From the NCBI GenBank assembly GCA_902773895.1, contig CACYGB010000019.1, positions 1-34,940 of the forward strand: a stretch of DNA of 34,940 nucleotides. Reading direction: 5' to 3'. Below, one piece after another: positions 5,432-31,738 of the stretch (the first letter of the stretch is position 1; each line of letters starts with the position of its first letter). The DNA is from an uncultured Eubacteriales bacterium. Lineage in GTDB: Bacteria > Bacillota > Clostridia > Christensenellales > Aristaeellaceae. The position numbers and the translations under genes were made by a program. The notes under the pieces were generated by a model, which worked only from the letters and a program-made list of their open reading frames with translations, searched no databases and had not been told where the DNA came from.

Positions 5432-6601
5432 ATGGATAAAAAGACGATTCTTGCCGCGTTCAAGAAAAACGCGATGCTGGTGGTCACGATCCTGGTGTAC
5501 CTGTTTTTCCTGATCCTGACCCAGGGCGGCATCTTCAGTCCTTCCAGCTTTACGGAGCTGATCAACCAGAACGCCTACGTGTACATTCTGGGCGCCGGCA
5601 TGCTGATGTGCATGCTCACTGGCGGCAACATTGACCTGAGCTGCGGCGCTTTCGTGTGCCTGCTGGGCGCGTTTGGCGGCGTGTTTATGATCGTGCAGGG
5701 GATGGGCACCGGCGTATCCATTCTGCTGCTGCTGCTGATCGGCATCGTGTACGGCGTGATCCTTGGCTATCTGGTGGCTTATGTGCATATTCCGCCGTGG
5801 ATTGCCACGTTGGCCGGGTATCTGGCCTTCCGCGGCTGGGGCACCGCCATTCTGTCCGCCAATTCCAAAACGGGCTCCCTGGCGCCTTTCCCGGTGGATT
5901 TCCAGCGTATCTTCTACGGCCGGGTCTTTCCATCGGAAAAAGGCGTGTTCAACTGGCCCTGCTTCCTGTTCGGCCTGCTGGCGGCGTGCCTGATCATCTT
6001 CCTGGTGTTTGCCACCCGCAGGAACCGCCTGGCCAAGGGCTATGAGGCGGACAGCGTGAAATCGGCGGCCCTCAAGAGCGGCCTTGGCAGCGCTGCCATC
6101 ATCCTGGTGATGACAAAGCTTTCCATGGACGGCGGCATTCCAACCACCCTGCTGTGGGTGGCGGGCGTCGTGCTGATTTACAGCTTCATTACCAGCAAGA
6201 CCACCATTGGCCGTCACTTCTACGTGGTGGGCGGCAATATGGAGGCTGCCCGGCTGTCCGGCGTCAACACCCGCCGCATCATGTTCATGGCGTATCTGAA
6301 CATGGCTGTGCTGACGGCGATCGCCACCATGACCGTGATTGCCCGTTCCCAATCCGCCTACGCGGACGTGGGCAAGAACTTTGAAATGGACGCCATTTCC
6401 GCCTGCGTGGTGGGCGGCGTATCTGCCAGCGGCGGCGCGGGCACGGTGCTAGGCATGGTGATCGGCGCGACGCTGATCGGCATCATCAACCTGGGCATGA
6501 GCCTGATCAGCCTGGACGCCAACTACCAGCGTGTGGTCAAGGGCTTCGTGCTGCTGGCTGCCGTGGTGTTTGACATCCTGTCCAAGAAACGCCAGAAGTA
6601 A
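5432..6601 (+). CDS. Sugar ABC transporter permease, second paralogue
   Basis: A 389-residue membrane protein of the same family as the preceding gene: LTGGNIDLSCGA after the second hydrophobic segment, then GRHFYVVGGNMEAARLSGV and EMDAISACVVGGVSASGGAG. It is about 40 residues shorter and differs throughout, so the pair is an old duplication, not a recent copy. AGGAGG at 5418-5423 supports ATG 5432. It ends the operon: a 10-bp hairpin and then a terminator follow. Most MmsAB-type systems have one permease that dimerises; two permeases suggest a heterodimer or a switch in substrate range (inference). It could equally be labelled mmsB. Confidence 0.9.
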   Translation: MDKKTILAAFKKNAMLVVTILVYLFFLILTQGGIFSPSSFTELINQNAYVYILGAGMLMCMLTGGNIDLSCGAFVCLLGAFGGVFMIVQGMGTGVSILLLLLIGIVYGVILGYLVAYVHIPPWIATLAGYLAFRGWGTAILSANSKTGSLAPFPVDFQRIFYGRVFPSEKGVFNWPCFLFGLLAACLIIFLVFATRRNRLAKGYEADSVKSAALKSGLGSAAIILVMTKLSMDGGIPTTLLWVAGVVLIYSFITSKTTIGRHFYVVGGNMEAARLSGVNTRRIMFMAYLNMAVLTAIATMTVIARSQSAYADVGKNFEMDAISACVVGGVSASGGAGTVLGMVIGATLIGIINLGMSLISLDANYQRVVKGFVLLAAVVFDILSKKRQK

Positions 6602-6605
6602 GGGG

Positions 6606-6690
6606 TTTTCCACTGCCGAACAGTGGGGAAACAAGGCTTTCCTGCATGTCATTTCAAAATGCCCCGTGGCTTCTGTCACGGGGCTTGTTA
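6606..6690 (+). terminator. Double hairpin ending the sugar operon
   Basis: The first stem pairs 6606-6615 with 6621-6630 around CCGAA. The second, GCCCCGTG (6661-6668) with CACGGGGC (6677-6684), is followed by TTGTT and is the likely terminator, although the T tract is short and read-through into the next small gene is possible. Confidence 0.65.
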
Positions 6691-6707
6691 AAGGAGACGG
6701 TTCCTGC

Positions 6708-6959
6708 GTGAACAATTATAAAACCCGGTCCAGCCTGATGGGCGTTGTGGCCGCTTACCTGCTGTACACGGCCTTTGAATTGTACCAGGGAAGGAATAAC
6801 CCCGATACGACCATGACCCCGGCGGTCATGATCCTGTTTATCGTGCTGTTTGTGATTGCCGCCGGCGCGCTGATCGTGTATGCGTACCGTTTGTGGAAGC
6901 GCGGCACGCAGGAAGAAAAGGAAAAAGCCCGGGAGGATGATCCGGACAGTATGAAATAA
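6708..6959 (+). CDS. Small two-helix membrane protein, unknown function
   Basis: An 83-residue protein beginning at GTG 6708, with AAGGAG at 6691-6696 about 11 bases upstream. The frame is open back to 6531, but the upstream part lies inside the permease gene and the operon terminator, so the GTG is preferred. There are two hydrophobic segments, about residues 9-24 and 34-58, followed by a highly charged tail (KRGTQEEKEKAREDDPDSMK). The gene family was not recognised. It sits between the sugar operon and another small unknown gene and may be read through from the operon. Its position after a weak terminator does not show whether it belongs to the transporter. Confidence 0.6.
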   Translation: MNNYKTRSSLMGVVAAYLLYTAFELYQGRNNPDTTMTPAVMILFIVLFVIAAGALIVYAYRLWKRGTQEEKEKAREDDPDSMK

Positions 6960-6999
6960 CCGGAAAGAACGAAAAAAGTGCCAAGCAGAGGAGGACCGG

Positions 7000-7440
7000 A
7001 TGGAAGCGTTGTTCGCGGCCCTGGAACAGGCTTTTGCAGATTACCGGACGGATCTGGAAAACTATGAAAAGAAGAGCAAGCCCACGGACGGACTGCTGGG
7101 CTTTGGCCATTCCCTCCGGGATGACGCCTGCCACGAACGCCTGGATGAACGGATAGAACGGACGGTTGCCGGTATCCGGGAGGCAAAACCTGATCCGAAT
7201 CAGGCGGAAAGGGCGGTACGTCTGCTGCTGGATCAAGGAAAAAGAACGGATTGGCCGCTGGCTGCGCAGTGGATGCTGCGGGCTGTGGAGCGCCACGCGC
7301 TGCCCCTGATCCCGTTCCTGAGCAAGGACGACGCGTCCGCGTTCCTGCAGGATTACACAAGCCGGTACCGCCCCTGGGACAGGCTGCCGGCACAAAAGCA
7401 GGTGTACAAGGCACTGAAAGCGCAAAGCCGGGAAAAGTGA
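7000..7440 (+). CDS. Hypothetical protein, small soluble, charged
   Basis: A 146-residue protein with no signal peptide or membrane segment; GAGGAGG ends 5 bases before ATG 7000. It looks wholly helical and is rich in Glu, Arg, Lys and Leu, with two conserved-looking aromatic stretches (TDWPLAAQWMLRAVERHALPL and SRYRPWDRLP). No family or catalytic motif was recognised. It lies 40 bases after the small membrane-protein gene in the same direction, so the two may form one transcript, and a strong terminator follows 36 bases after its stop. Confidence 0.65.
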   Translation: MEALFAALEQAFADYRTDLENYEKKSKPTDGLLGFGHSLRDDACHERLDERIERTVAGIREAKPDPNQAERAVRLLLDQGKRTDWPLAAQWMLRAVERHALPLIPFLSKDDASAFLQDYTSRYRPWDRLPAQKQVYKALKAQSREK

Positions 7441-7476
7441 TTGAATCGTTTCGCCGATCCATCCGTCAATGACCCG

Positions 7477-7520
7477 GGCCCCGCGGCTGATTTACCGTTT
7501 CCGCGGGGCCGCATTCTTTA
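7477..7520 (+). terminator. Rho-independent terminator
   Basis: A perfect 10-bp stem GGCCCCGCGG (7477-7486) with CCGCGGGGCC (7501-7510) encloses a 14-nt loop and is followed by GCATTCTTTA. It closes the transcription unit of the two small genes at 6708-7440. Confidence 0.8.
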
Positions 7521-7548
7521 TCGGAGAAAAGAAAAATGAAAAAAACAC

Positions 7549-7577
7549 TTGACAGGGGTAAGAAAATGCATTATAAT
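7549..7577 (+). promoter_or_regulatory. Perfect-consensus sigma-A promoter for a short RNA
   Basis: TTGACA (7549-7554), exactly 17 nt, then TATAAT (7572-7577). This is one of the two perfect promoters in the window, the other being the uraA promoter. The predicted start is G7584. There is no coding gene downstream on this strand before a terminator about 90 bases later. Confidence 0.85.
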
Positions 7578-7583
7578 TGCTTT

Positions 7584-7679
7584 GTGGTTAGAAAATACTA
7601 ACTGCAAAAAACAACACACCTCCTTTTCTTCTCCCTGGGCGGGCGCTGTGCGGCATCACAGCGCCCGTTCTCTTTTGTT
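7584..7679 (+). ncRNA. Candidate trans-acting small RNA with CU-rich, anti-Shine-Dalgarno-like seed
   Basis: The predicted transcript is about 95 nt. It has three parts in order. First is a 5' stem-loop, GTTAG (7587-7591) with CTAAC (7598-7602). Second is an unpaired A/C-rich then CU-rich stretch containing CACCTCCTTTTCTTCTCCC (7618-7636), close to the 3' end of 16S rRNA and complementary to AAGGAGGTG-type ribosome binding sites. Third is a 10-bp GC-rich terminator stem (7641-7650 with 7657-7666) followed by GTTCTCTTTTGTT. This architecture is that of known Firmicute sRNAs (FsrA, RsaE, the Listeria LhrC group), which block translation through C/U-rich loops. No convincing ORF lies inside. The inverted repeat over the start site could alternatively be an operator. 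The family was not recognised; the assignment is an inference from promoter, fold and seed. Confidence 0.6.
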
Positions 7680-7689
7680 GATGACGCCG

Positions 7690-8393
7690 TCAATCCCTCC
7701 AACAGGGGAAACGGTCCAGCGGGATGCCGGACGGGCCGCTTTTTCGCTCGTTCCCGCAGGGAAAAGCACCCGGCCGCATGGGCGGCGGGCCGTTCCAAGA
7801 TCCGGGGCTTTCTTCCTGCCGGCATGCAAAAAGATCCATGGGATGGCAGCGGAAATCTCCTTCCGACATGGCAAAGGGATCCAGCCGGGGATACAGCGGG
7901 CGCGGATCGGGGCAGCAGGGACCGCCCGATACCGGGCAAGGGGACAACCCTTCCACCAGCCACTCCAGGGCGACCTCCCGGTCGTTTCCCTGGTTGGCCA
8001 TGCAGCGGTTCCAGGCCGGACAGCAGATTGAATGAACACCTGTCCGCGCCAGCTTTCCTTTTCGGGGCATCGTTCATGAAGCGTCAGCTCCGCTTCCAAA
8101 GGAAGCTCTGCCTGAAAAACGCGGCCACAGCGGTCCTGCAGGCGCAAGGCCACGGGTACGTTTACCAGCAGCGTCAGGCCGCTGCAGCCCCGGCGGGGCA
8201 ATTCATGCCATTGCGGCGTGCTGCACACGGCGGCGTCCGGCACGGAGAAGGGCGGCTGCGCATCCCGGGGCAATAAATCGGGACACAGGAAAACGCATTC
8301 CGGCCGCCTGTGCAGCTTGCCGCAGGCCAGAATGCGCTGTAAAAGATAGCCGCCCCCTGGGGGCGGCATGGAATGATGGAAACAGTTTTTCAT
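7690..8393 (-). pseudogene. Unknown clostridial-type protein, reading frame probably broken
   Basis: ATG 8393 has a good AGGAGG (plus-strand 8401-8406) 7 bases upstream. The first ~120 residues look like real protein, with a Cys-containing N terminus and a beta-rich middle (LLVNVPVALRLQDRCGRVF, then AELPLEAELTLHE) resembling a hypothetical family I have seen in Clostridia. After about VFIQSAVRP (near 8000) codon choice in this frame becomes poor. Natural codon use moves to the -1 frame (GNDREVALEWLVEGLSPCP...), which runs to a TGA at 7690. The original frame continues to 7656, inside the terminator stem of the convergent small RNA. A single-base indel near 8000, real or from sequencing, explains this best. 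It is the last gene of the minus-strand group. Function unknown. Confidence 0.5.
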
Positions 8394-8425
8394 GGTATCC
8401 CCTCCTTTCAGGGTGATACCACATC

Positions 8426-9622
8426 TTATTCCGGCAGGCCGTTATCGGTGTATGCCAAGGGACGGCCGTAGCGGTCGTACAGGATGGCCATGTCGTATTT
8501 TTTCTGGTGCCAGGCGCGCTTGATGTTCCATTGAAAATCGCAGGCGCCTTCGGTGCTGCGGGTGCCGACGGTGAATTCCCCGCCGGGGGAAAGGGAAACA
8601 TCGGGCAGCGTCACCAGGTCGTCGCCACGGGAGGAAAACAGGATGGCGCCGTTTAAGTCCATCGCTTCTGAACCGCCGTTGACGATGGTGAGCACGTCGT
8701 TTTTCACGTTCATGCGCAGCGACACTTTTTCCGCCCGCAGCGGCACATCCTGCCAGAAAACGTCGGTGACGGTGGGGGTTTCGTTTTCCAGGGTGACCAG
8801 CCAGGCGTCGTGGGCGTCCTGCGTTACGTAGACGGCGCTGCCCACGGCGGACAGGCGGCTCAGCGTTCCGCGGGCCGGAGTATCCGATTCCTCCAGGGCG
8901 CTGGTGGTGATCAGGGATACCTTGGGCTGCACGGCGCGCAGCATATTCAGCGTGGAGGCCTTGCTGTCGCCGTGATGGCCCACCTTCAGCACGTCCGTCA
9001 GGGTGAAGGCCTTGACCTTCAGCAGGTCGTATTCCTCATCGTCCTTCATATCGCCGGCAAACAGGATGCTGCCCTGGGGGCAGGCAAACCGCAGCACCAG
9101 GGAGTTGTTGTTTTCATTGTCGTCATTGACGGTGGTGGGCCCCAGCACGGTCAGGGAGCCGGTTTGTCCCGCCGGGATCACGTCGCCCGCCTTCAGCCAG
9201 GTAACGGGCATGCCCCGACCGGCGGCGGCTGTCTGGGCCGGGTGCTGCCCCGGCTTGACGTCGTAATAGATTTCCGGCGCGTACCAGGCGTCGATTTCCA
9301 CGTCGCTGGCGGCCAGGGCCGTCAGACCGCCGAAATGATCCTTGTGGCAGTGGGTCAGAAACACGCCGTTTAGGCGCGTCACGCCGTACTGCTTCAGCAT
9401 GGTTTCCAGCGCCCCGTAGGTCTGGTCGTAGCCGGCGTCGATGAGGAACGCCTGATCCTCCCACAGCAGTAGCAGGCAGTCTGCCTTGCCGATGTTGGGC
9501 ACCACCAGCCGCACGGCGTTTTGCTCGGTGGCCTGGGTCGGCGCGGGAATGCTCCAGGAAACGATCCCCGCGATCACAAAGAAAAGCGCCAGAATTTTCG
9601 TCAATACCTTCACCTTTTTCAT
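8426..9622 (-). CDS. Secreted ComEC/Rec2-like metallo-beta-lactamase-fold hydrolase with C-terminal lamin-tail domain
   Basis: A 398-residue protein with an N-terminal signal or anchor (residues 1-31, hydrophobic 8-24, then APTQA). The metal-binding motif is THCHKDHFGG (HxHxDH at 91-96), followed by ILFAGDM with the bridging Asp and LKVGHHGD with a further His. This arrangement is that of the soluble ComEC/Rec2 hydrolase domain and its stand-alone relatives, some of which are extracellular nucleases or phosphodiesterases. Residues from about 305 to the end (LTIVNGGSEAMDLNGAIL ... YDRYGRPLAYTDNG) read as a lamin-tail domain, a small Ig-like fold common on secreted bacterial nucleases. A role in degrading or binding extracellular DNA or nucleotides is inferred. 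GAAAGG lies 8 bases before the ATG. A terminator separates it from ricT, so it probably has its own promoter. Confidence 0.88.
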   Translation of the reverse strand: MKKVKVLTKILALFFVIAGIVSWSIPAPTQATEQNAVRLVVPNIGKADCLLLLWEDQAFLIDAGYDQTYGALETMLKQYGVTRLNGVFLTHCHKDHFGGLTALAASDVEIDAWYAPEIYYDVKPGQHPAQTAAAGRGMPVTWLKAGDVIPAGQTGSLTVLGPTTVNDDNENNNSLVLRFACPQGSILFAGDMKDDEEYDLLKVKAFTLTDVLKVGHHGDSKASTLNMLRAVQPKVSLITTSALEESDTPARGTLSRLSAVGSAVYVTQDAHDAWLVTLENETPTVTDVFWQDVPLRAEKVSLRMNVKNDVLTIVNGGSEAMDLNGAILFSSRGDDLVTLPDVSLSPGGEFTVGTRSTEGACDFQWNIKRAWHQKKYDMAILYDRYGRPLAYTDNGLPE

Positions 9623-9688
9623 TCCTCCAGCCTTTCGTACGGCACAGGCCGGATTCCTCCGAACCGGGAAAAAGCAATTATTCTTTTG

Positions 9689-9712
9689 AAAAAGAGCGGT
9701 GTTTGGCCGCCC
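9689..9712 (-). terminator. Terminator after ricT (works in both directions)
   Basis: On the minus strand GGGCGG (9712-9707) pairs with CCGCTC (9699-9694) around a 7-nt loop and is followed by TTTTTC. The plus strand also has TTTT after the stem. It lies about 20 bases downstream of the ricT stop. Confidence 0.7.
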
Positions 9713-9733
9713 TTTTCAGCCTGATGCGATGGA

Positions 9734-10741
9734 TCAGGTTTCGTCTTCGGTAATATCCTGCATGTCTGCCGTCTCGTCTTGGGCAATATCTTCGATTTCG
9801 GCCAGCGCCTCGTCTTCCGAAATGCCTTCGTCCAGCGCGAATTCCTTTATGGATTCCTCGTCGGGCGTATTGTCGGCGTCCGGCTCCGGCGGGGCGGCCT
9901 TGGCGCTTTCCGCTTTGGGGGCACGGGGCGCGGGGGAAACGCGCTGCACCTGCTCCAGGGGATAATCCTTTTGCTCGGTGCTGTCGCCCTTGGGGATGCG
10001 CACCCGCACGGTTTCCTTGAGGATGTTCAGATCCACCACCGTGCCGTTGCCGTCCGGCGTGATCACTTCCTTGCCCACCTTGGGCATCCGCTTGCGGGTG
10101 GCTTCGTAGTGATCTTCTTCATACTTCAGGCAGCACATCAGCCGGCCGCAGACCCCGGAAATCTTGGTGGGGTTCAGGGACAGATTCTGTTCCTTGGCCA
10201 TTTTGATGGATACGGGCTGGAAATCGCCCAGGAAGGCGCCGCAGCATACCGGCCGGCCGCACAGCCCCAGGCCGCCCATCATCTTGGCTTCATCACGGAC
10301 GCCGATCTGGCGCAGTTCGATGCGGGTGTGGAACACCGCGGCCAGATCCTTGACCAGGGAGCGGAAATCCACCCGCTTATCCGAGGTGAAATAGAACAGG
10401 ATCTTGGAATTGTCGAAGGTGTATTCGCAGCCCACCAGCTTCATCTGCAGCTTGTGCTCGTCCACCTTTTTCTGGCACATGGCCATGGCGTTCTTTTCCT
10501 TGGAGCGGTTGTCGGCCTGGTGCTGGGCGTCGTCCGCCGTGGCGATGCGGATCACCTTTTTCAGCGGCGGCGTGATTAAATCATCATTCACTTCTTTGAC
10601 GCCGGTGACCACTTCGCCATATTCCACGCCGCGCACCGTTTCCACGATCACGGCGTCCCCGGCGGTGGGCCACAGGGGGCCCGGATCGAAATAATAGAGC
10701 TTGCCTGCGTTCCTGAAGCGAACGCCGATTACTGTTGCCAT
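9734..10741 (-). CDS. ricT: PSP1-domain protein RicT (YaaT), regulator of RNA processing
   Basis: A 335-residue protein with the PSP1 region at residues 1-210. Six cysteines occur in the pattern typical of the family: C161, C166, C167 (LCGRPVCC) and C198, C203, C204 (VCGRLMCC). In Bacillus subtilis, RicT with RicA and RicF forms a complex with [4Fe-4S] clusters that stimulates RNase Y cleavage and phosphorelay. The C-terminal third (from about residue 265) is a low-complexity, Pro/Ala then Glu/Asp-rich tail. The start ATG overlaps the end of holB, with GGAGG inside holB 9 bases upstream. The order darA-holB-ricT matches Bacillus. No ricA or ricF is visible in this window. Confidence 0.93.
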   Translation of the reverse strand: MATVIGVRFRNAGKLYYFDPGPLWPTAGDAVIVETVRGVEYGEVVTGVKEVNDDLITPPLKKVIRIATADDAQHQADNRSKEKNAMAMCQKKVDEHKLQMKLVGCEYTFDNSKILFYFTSDKRVDFRSLVKDLAAVFHTRIELRQIGVRDEAKMMGGLGLCGRPVCCGAFLGDFQPVSIKMAKEQNLSLNPTKISGVCGRLMCCLKYEEDHYEATRKRMPKVGKEVITPDGNGTVVDLNILKETVRVRIPKGDSTEQKDYPLEQVQRVSPAPRAPKAESAKAAPPEPDADNTPDEESIKEFALDEGISEDEALAEIEDIAQDETADMQDITEDET

Positions 10742-31709: not shown

Positions 31710-31738
31710 TTGACAAGCTGGATAAAAACGGCTATAAT
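31710..31738 (+). promoter_or_regulatory. Perfect-consensus sigma-A promoter of uraA
   Basis: TTGACA (31710-31715), 17 nt, TATAAT (31733-31738). Transcription should begin near 31745, directly in front of the PyrR-type leader. A strong promoter combined with attenuation is the usual design for pyrimidine genes. Confidence 0.92.

Follow-up and report, generated by a model that had tools for sequence, protein, structure and literature searches.

The locus and its predicted RNA

The window analysed in this study, that is, the whole stretch of 34,940 nucleotides, carries on its plus strand a compact element that begins with a sigma-A promoter at 7549-7577 (TTGACA at 7549-7554 and TATAAT at 7572-7577, 17 bp apart). 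The first-pass annotation, made from the letters of the DNA, had called this promoter perfect, and it scored 12 of 12 and was the sole promoter-like match in positions 6000-10000, a segment whose shuffles gave a mean of 1.0 matches at the laxer 9-of-12 standard. With the start taken from the -10 box, the predicted transcript covers about 95 nt (7584-7679). The earlier description of this RNA, with a hairpin at the 5' end, a CU stretch left unpaired and then a strong terminator, was borne out by folding: the predicted structure, which ends in a 14-pair terminator, has an energy of -35.7 kcal/mol and was matched in stability by none of 200 shuffles (z = -5.26).

The palindromic box GTTAGAAAATACTAAC occupies 7587-7602 (+4 to +19) and is the predicted operator of a DtxR-family iron repressor; the RNA of this region folds as the 5' hairpin (7584-7605). 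Further downstream lie the unpaired CU-rich seed CCTCCTTTTCTTCTCCC (7619-7635), complementary to extended Shine-Dalgarno sequences, and an intrinsic terminator, whose stem-loop (7637-7670) runs into a T-rich stretch. Of the 11 terminator-like sites counted in 6000-10000, where shuffles gave a mean of 5.2, it has the most pairs. The apex of this terminator, GTGCGGCATCAC (7648-7659), includes the loop TGCGGCATC. The AGGAGG-type sites near 8401, 15066 and 33496, proposed earlier as examples of what the seed could pair with, do precede ATG codons, the first of them on the minus strand.

A convergent ORF (7656-8393, minus strand) and a gene for a metallo-beta-lactamase-fold protein (8426-9622, minus strand) serve as synteny markers, since the second gene and the N-terminal part of the first are kept beside the sRNA in four relatives (G015, G027, G009 and G021). 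Relatives align to the convergent ORF only to about residue 174, so its 3' part, which runs into the terminator, may be frameshifted or non-coding. The two neighbours are thus common to 4 of the 11 other carrier loci and are missing from the remaining 7 within the stretch compared.

The first-pass annotation had also seen no evident ORF; mechanical ORFs do cross the element in the window. ATG was absent from the predicted transcript in 4 of 9 stand-alone copies, and its positions differed among most of the other 5 in a comparison of ATG starts only; on these grounds a short-ORF reading of the element was rejected.

At gathering score, an Rfam scan of the window returned one tRNA and nothing at the sRNA, and the 12 homologous loci described below matched no family; below threshold, 7440-7760 gave ten matches, the best at E 0.075, which were taken as chance. 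A second perfect TTGACA-TATAAT promoter lies at 31710-31738, followed by a leader that, read by eye, presumably resembles a PyrR-type attenuator and had no Rfam match at gathering score.

Homologues and conserved parts

The idea of a new small RNA gained support from the covariance search of related Clostridia that had been suggested along with it. The covariance model of the seed-terminator unit (R1), built from 9 copies, gave 14 matches at E <= 0.01 in 29 genomes of the genus, of which 12 (E <= 2.1e-8), one per genome, were accepted as convincing homologues; two others, in G017 (E 1e-4) and G026 (E 0.0075), were dropped as they were without the TGCGGCATC loop. The predicted RNA gene is conserved in 12 of 29 genomes and has no Rfam match at gathering score. 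A convincing copy was absent from the other 17, near-complete genomes among them, which counts against the explanation that we prefer.

Outside the genus, no convincing R1 match was found among 300 genomes of the family (genus included), a search run with stricter filters that are prone to losing weak matches. Eight places in 7 non-genus genomes (E 0.003 to 0.009) were rejected, none having the TGCGGCATC loop; reading by eye of the 130 nt upstream of the dropped weak matches showed neither promoter nor box, though one of these places had no upstream sequence. All blastn matches at E <= 3.5e-4 among 100 relatives came from the same genus, and the best one outside it had E 0.0068. A seed-plus-loop scan of the contigs of 84,980 species, with a pattern blind to the diverged G002 and G025 copies and in a collection that may omit the window's own genome, returned 9 stretches on contigs equal in length to nine of the carrier contigs; all were labelled as Clostridia, Clostridiales or Christensenellaceae, and the labels of 4 of the 9 named rumen or omasum. 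The window's bacterium may itself come from a rumen. Within the genomes searched, the predicted sRNA family occurs in a single genus of uncultured Clostridia, and in the PMC literature no paper evidently describing this RNA was found within the terms searched.

Nine of the 12 copies are stand-alone genes, and all nine have the promoter TTGACA-17-TATANT. Their box lies 7-10 nt past the -10 hexamer, and a variable linker separates it from the CU seed, after which comes the terminator. The CU-rich stretch is among the best-kept parts and is predicted to be mostly unpaired (mean unpaired 0.56 to 1.00 across the stand-alone copies): CCTCC is identical in 12 of 12 copies, and 8 of 12 keep all 17 nt of the seed, in contrast to the linker, which varies. 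In the terminator helix of 9 sequences, 96% of cells are paired, a value reached by 0 of 500 shuffles, and changes on both sides occur at 6 of 14 pairs, a number reached by 1 of 500 shuffles. The apical TGCGGCATC is invariant in 12 of 12 copies while the stem below it covaries. These data indicate that the predicted promoter, the box just past the start, the anti-Shine-Dalgarno CU stretch and the terminator are kept as a unit, and this conservation among homologues makes the element more than a product of chance.

The box, its putative regulon and a DtxR-family regulator

The inverted repeat at +4 to +19 had been suspected of adding regulation, which is very probably correct, as GTTAGN6CTAAC precedes iron-uptake genes elsewhere. 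The canonical DtxR/IdeR box is the 19-bp TTAGGTTAGSCTAACCTAA; the present box shares its GTTAG/CTAAC half-site core, set around a centre of 6 bp. Its spacing is not that of the IdeR box, and it also differs from a Fur box. The exact box is found in 10 of the 12 sRNA copies (7 stand-alone and 3 at the promoter of a small ORF) and is one base off in G019 and G025. Since all 12 promoters retain the 6-bp centre of free sequence, and since the predicted 5' fold differs in G019, the box looks more like an operator acting as DNA than like a hairpin acting as RNA.

In the window's own genome, the exact box occurs 5 times against 0 for the reversed pattern, each time preceding a gene: two of the boxes stand before a DUF3793-flavodoxin pair, and one each before the sRNA, an FTR1 permease and a MacB-like ABC transporter. 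A search of this genome that tolerated one mismatch found fewer boxes than controls (15 vs 31), which counts against our explanation. Over the 29 genomes, 115 exact sites were found against 38 for the reversed pattern, with more boxes than controls in 23 genomes, equal numbers in 2 and fewer in 4; the absence of the exact box from 3 genomes again counts against it.

All 115 sites were compared with reference proteins. The genes downstream were the sRNA (10), feo (13), FTR1 (10), DUF3793 (23), half-ABC (11), MacB-type ABC (6), DUF6796/HTH (10), a secreted protein (5) and other genes (7), the ABC and some other labels being given by eye. At 20 boxes no gene was assigned, a further point against our explanation, and the 18 stretches covering these sites, read by eye, held no further seed-terminator unit. 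Because the reference proteins came from the sites themselves, this tally is a description of the regulon, not a blind test of it. Pfam supported two examples of FeoA and a single one of FTR1, of DUF3793, of flavodoxin and of a DtxR-family regulator, the flavodoxin being confirmed in the own genome only. Boxes are more numerous in carriers of the sRNA than in genomes lacking it (one-sided p = 0.004), and remain so if the box of the sRNA is subtracted (one-sided p = 0.021), both values being uncorrected for kinship. We infer that the box shared by the sRNA, feo, FTR1 and DUF3793 promoters would be the operator of an iron regulator.

DUF3793 genes have two boxes in front of them, 54-78 bp from each other, at locus L063 (6149-6241) and in nine genomes (G002, G005, G011, G015, G017, G020, G025, G027 and G028), and a single exact box stands at this place in G010. 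The twin arrangement suggests that repression there may be cooperative.

A DtxR-family protein of 124 residues is encoded near the FTR1 box of the own genome. It barely passed one Pfam cut-off (26.2 vs 26) and modestly passed the other. It was matched in 27 of 29 genomes at E <= 1e-5; the 38 matches in the genus were assigned by similarity to this query, the only such protein checked against Pfam. Eight of the 38 lie within 1 kb of a box, whereas about 0.1 would be expected under a rough uniform model; as nearness to a box was how the query came to notice, the count without it is 7 of 37.

Proposed function and origin of the RNA

We consider it fairly probable that the element represents a new family of iron-repressed, Shine-Dalgarno-mimicking sRNAs standing behind a DtxR-type box in uncultured, partly rumen-derived Clostridia. 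In the proposed mechanism, an iron-loaded DtxR-family repressor would cover +4 to +19 and block transcription, and under low iron the sRNA would be made together with iron importers and flavodoxin, the protein that stands in for ferredoxin in many bacteria when iron is short. The CU stretch would then pair with extended, purine-rich ribosome binding sites resembling GAAGAAAAGGAGG, and translation of the paired mRNAs would drop, sparing iron. Repression via the box is strongly suggested by these sequence comparisons, and the pairing of the CU stretch with mRNAs we infer from the nature and conservation of the seed. If this is true, an iron-sparing sRNA exists in uncultured Clostridia under a switch that is probably of the DtxR family rather than of the Fur type, and the regulon of its box has been sketched from sequence alone.

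RsaE/RoxS and LhrC also direct unpaired CU-rich or C-rich seeds against ribosome binding sites and answer to different regulators. The first-pass annotation had likened the element to FsrA, RsaE and LhrC, which stands as a functional comparison and not as kinship: the LhrC Rfam model gave 17.5 bits on the window locus against a gathering score of 110, RsaE was not among the cmscan matches for 7440-7760, and the window and the 12 homologous loci had no match at gathering score to the FsrA family, for which we take an Rfam model to exist. FsrA of the Gram-positive Bacillus subtilis is described as an iron-controlled sRNA whose C-rich motif binds Shine-Dalgarno sequences (PMC9410917). It shares with the present RNA a C-rich or anti-Shine-Dalgarno motif and the iron control predicted here, but it is under Fur, whereas the box here is GTTAGN6CTAAC, with DtxR-family genes near some boxes. 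IsrR of Staphylococcus is an iron-repressed sRNA with unpaired C-rich regions (PMC9410917); it has three such regions and two Fur boxes in 174 nt, against one CU region and one DtxR-type box in the present element. MrsI of Mycobacterium tuberculosis is an iron-starvation sRNA with a site for the DtxR-family protein IdeR in its promoter and a six-nucleotide seed against the hypF and bfrA mRNAs (PMC8628891), and, compared by description, it is alike in its DtxR-family site, which is a prediction for the present RNA, and unlike in the seed. The best reading of these comparisons is a new sRNA family that would be an analogue, not a member, of FsrA, IsrR or MrsI.

To look for targets, 7 carrier genomes were searched for the 15-nt complement of the seed, as many as 2 mismatches being tolerated. 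This gave 118 matches (7 of them the sRNA itself) against 192 for the reversed pattern; the complements were therefore not enriched over this control. Forty of the 111 non-self matches were inspected; all end in AGGAGG, and in 31 cases an ORF of 40 codons or more begins 2-13 nt further on. A Pfam check covered 10 of these 31 ORFs, with the first 90 residues of each. G011 supplied the two that were judged to encode iron proteins: a rubrerythrin and a DUF362 protein, whose ferredoxin-like motifs were noted by eye. With one common seed in both tests, the pairing of rubrerythrin orthologues in carriers (10) against non-carriers (15) gave a one-sided p of 0.024, and that of DUF362 orthologues (7 against 9) a one-sided p of 0.045, neither corrected for kinship or multiple tests. 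The rubrerythrin test used 25 of 28 matches, omitting three at 71-77% identity, one of which was the only match in G001; the DUF362 test used all 16, two of which look mis-started. Strong rubrerythrin pairing was also seen in G003, G006, G005 and G013, which lack the sRNA. As the sites are not enriched and the rubrerythrin and DUF362 signals are weak and have counter-examples, no target is named here.

The lack of an enriched set of complementary sites, together with the constant TGCGGCATC above a covarying stem, would also fit a box-controlled RNA that chiefly does something other than pair with mRNAs: its CU stretch and invariant loop could bind a protein or another RNA (as a sponge), or titrate something other than ribosome binding sites. 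We regard this as unlikely, since the conserved stretch is anti-Shine-Dalgarno and predicted to be open, and since the C-rich motif of FsrA binds the Shine-Dalgarno sequence (PMC9410917). On a doubtful but wider view, the RNA would mimic the 16S rRNA tail under an iron switch, shift between an mRNA 3' end and a free gene within one genus and carry two conserved interaction sites, the anti-Shine-Dalgarno stretch and the terminator loop; the loop might recruit a protein or RNA partner that gives a promiscuous seed its selectivity, or the RNA might dampen translation broadly in iron starvation. The terminator loop offers a second conserved module that is testable.

In three relatives (G021, G023 and G002), the seed-terminator unit is the 3' end of a small-peptide mRNA with the order TTGACA, TATACT, exact box, ORF (60, 54 and 41 codons, respectively), seed and terminator, the stop codon lying 33-41 nt from the loop. 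The G021 locus is syntenic with the window locus, so G021 has the 3'-end form where the window has a free gene. The peptides (contigs C86, C127 and C28, respectively) have, by eye, a hydrophobic N-terminal half and cysteines, two being cysteine-rich; those of G021 and G023 belong to no Pfam family at cut-off, and none of the three to an NCBIfam family at cut-off. Under the preferred iron-sparing reading, the RNA in these relatives would be made as the 3' end of a box-controlled small membrane-peptide mRNA and may act from there.

The same arrangement and synteny could mean that the unit is merely the terminator or 3' untranslated region of a box-regulated membrane-peptide gene that decayed in most carriers and left a remnant, which we find quite improbable: a remnant would drift, but the seed, outside the ORF, is kept in the stand-alone copies, and all 9 retain the TTGACA promoter and its 17-bp spacing. 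In a DNA tree of rubrerythrin (25 genomes, G001, G015, G017 and G027 being left out; a single gene with several weak nodes), the 3'-end forms stand in two places and sRNA carriers in both deep groups, which is compatible with, though not decisive for, an ORF-bearing ancestor with repeated loss. If the iron-sparing reading is true, the 3'-end form, the free form and absence make up a natural series in one genus of how regulatory RNAs arise from, or leave, mRNA tails.

A box that responds not to iron but to manganese, or to some other regulator sensing metals or redox state, is very improbable, as feo, FTR1 and DUF3793 genes make up 46 of the 115 sites and no manganese transporter was recognised at a site in an assignment not aimed at such genes, even though the best NCBIfam models of the own regulator are MntR, both below cut-off, and one box site adjoins a ZIP transporter gene. 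In G028 (L153, contig C1, 201-781), a DtxR-family regulator gene and the sRNA lie tail to tail, about 125 bp apart.
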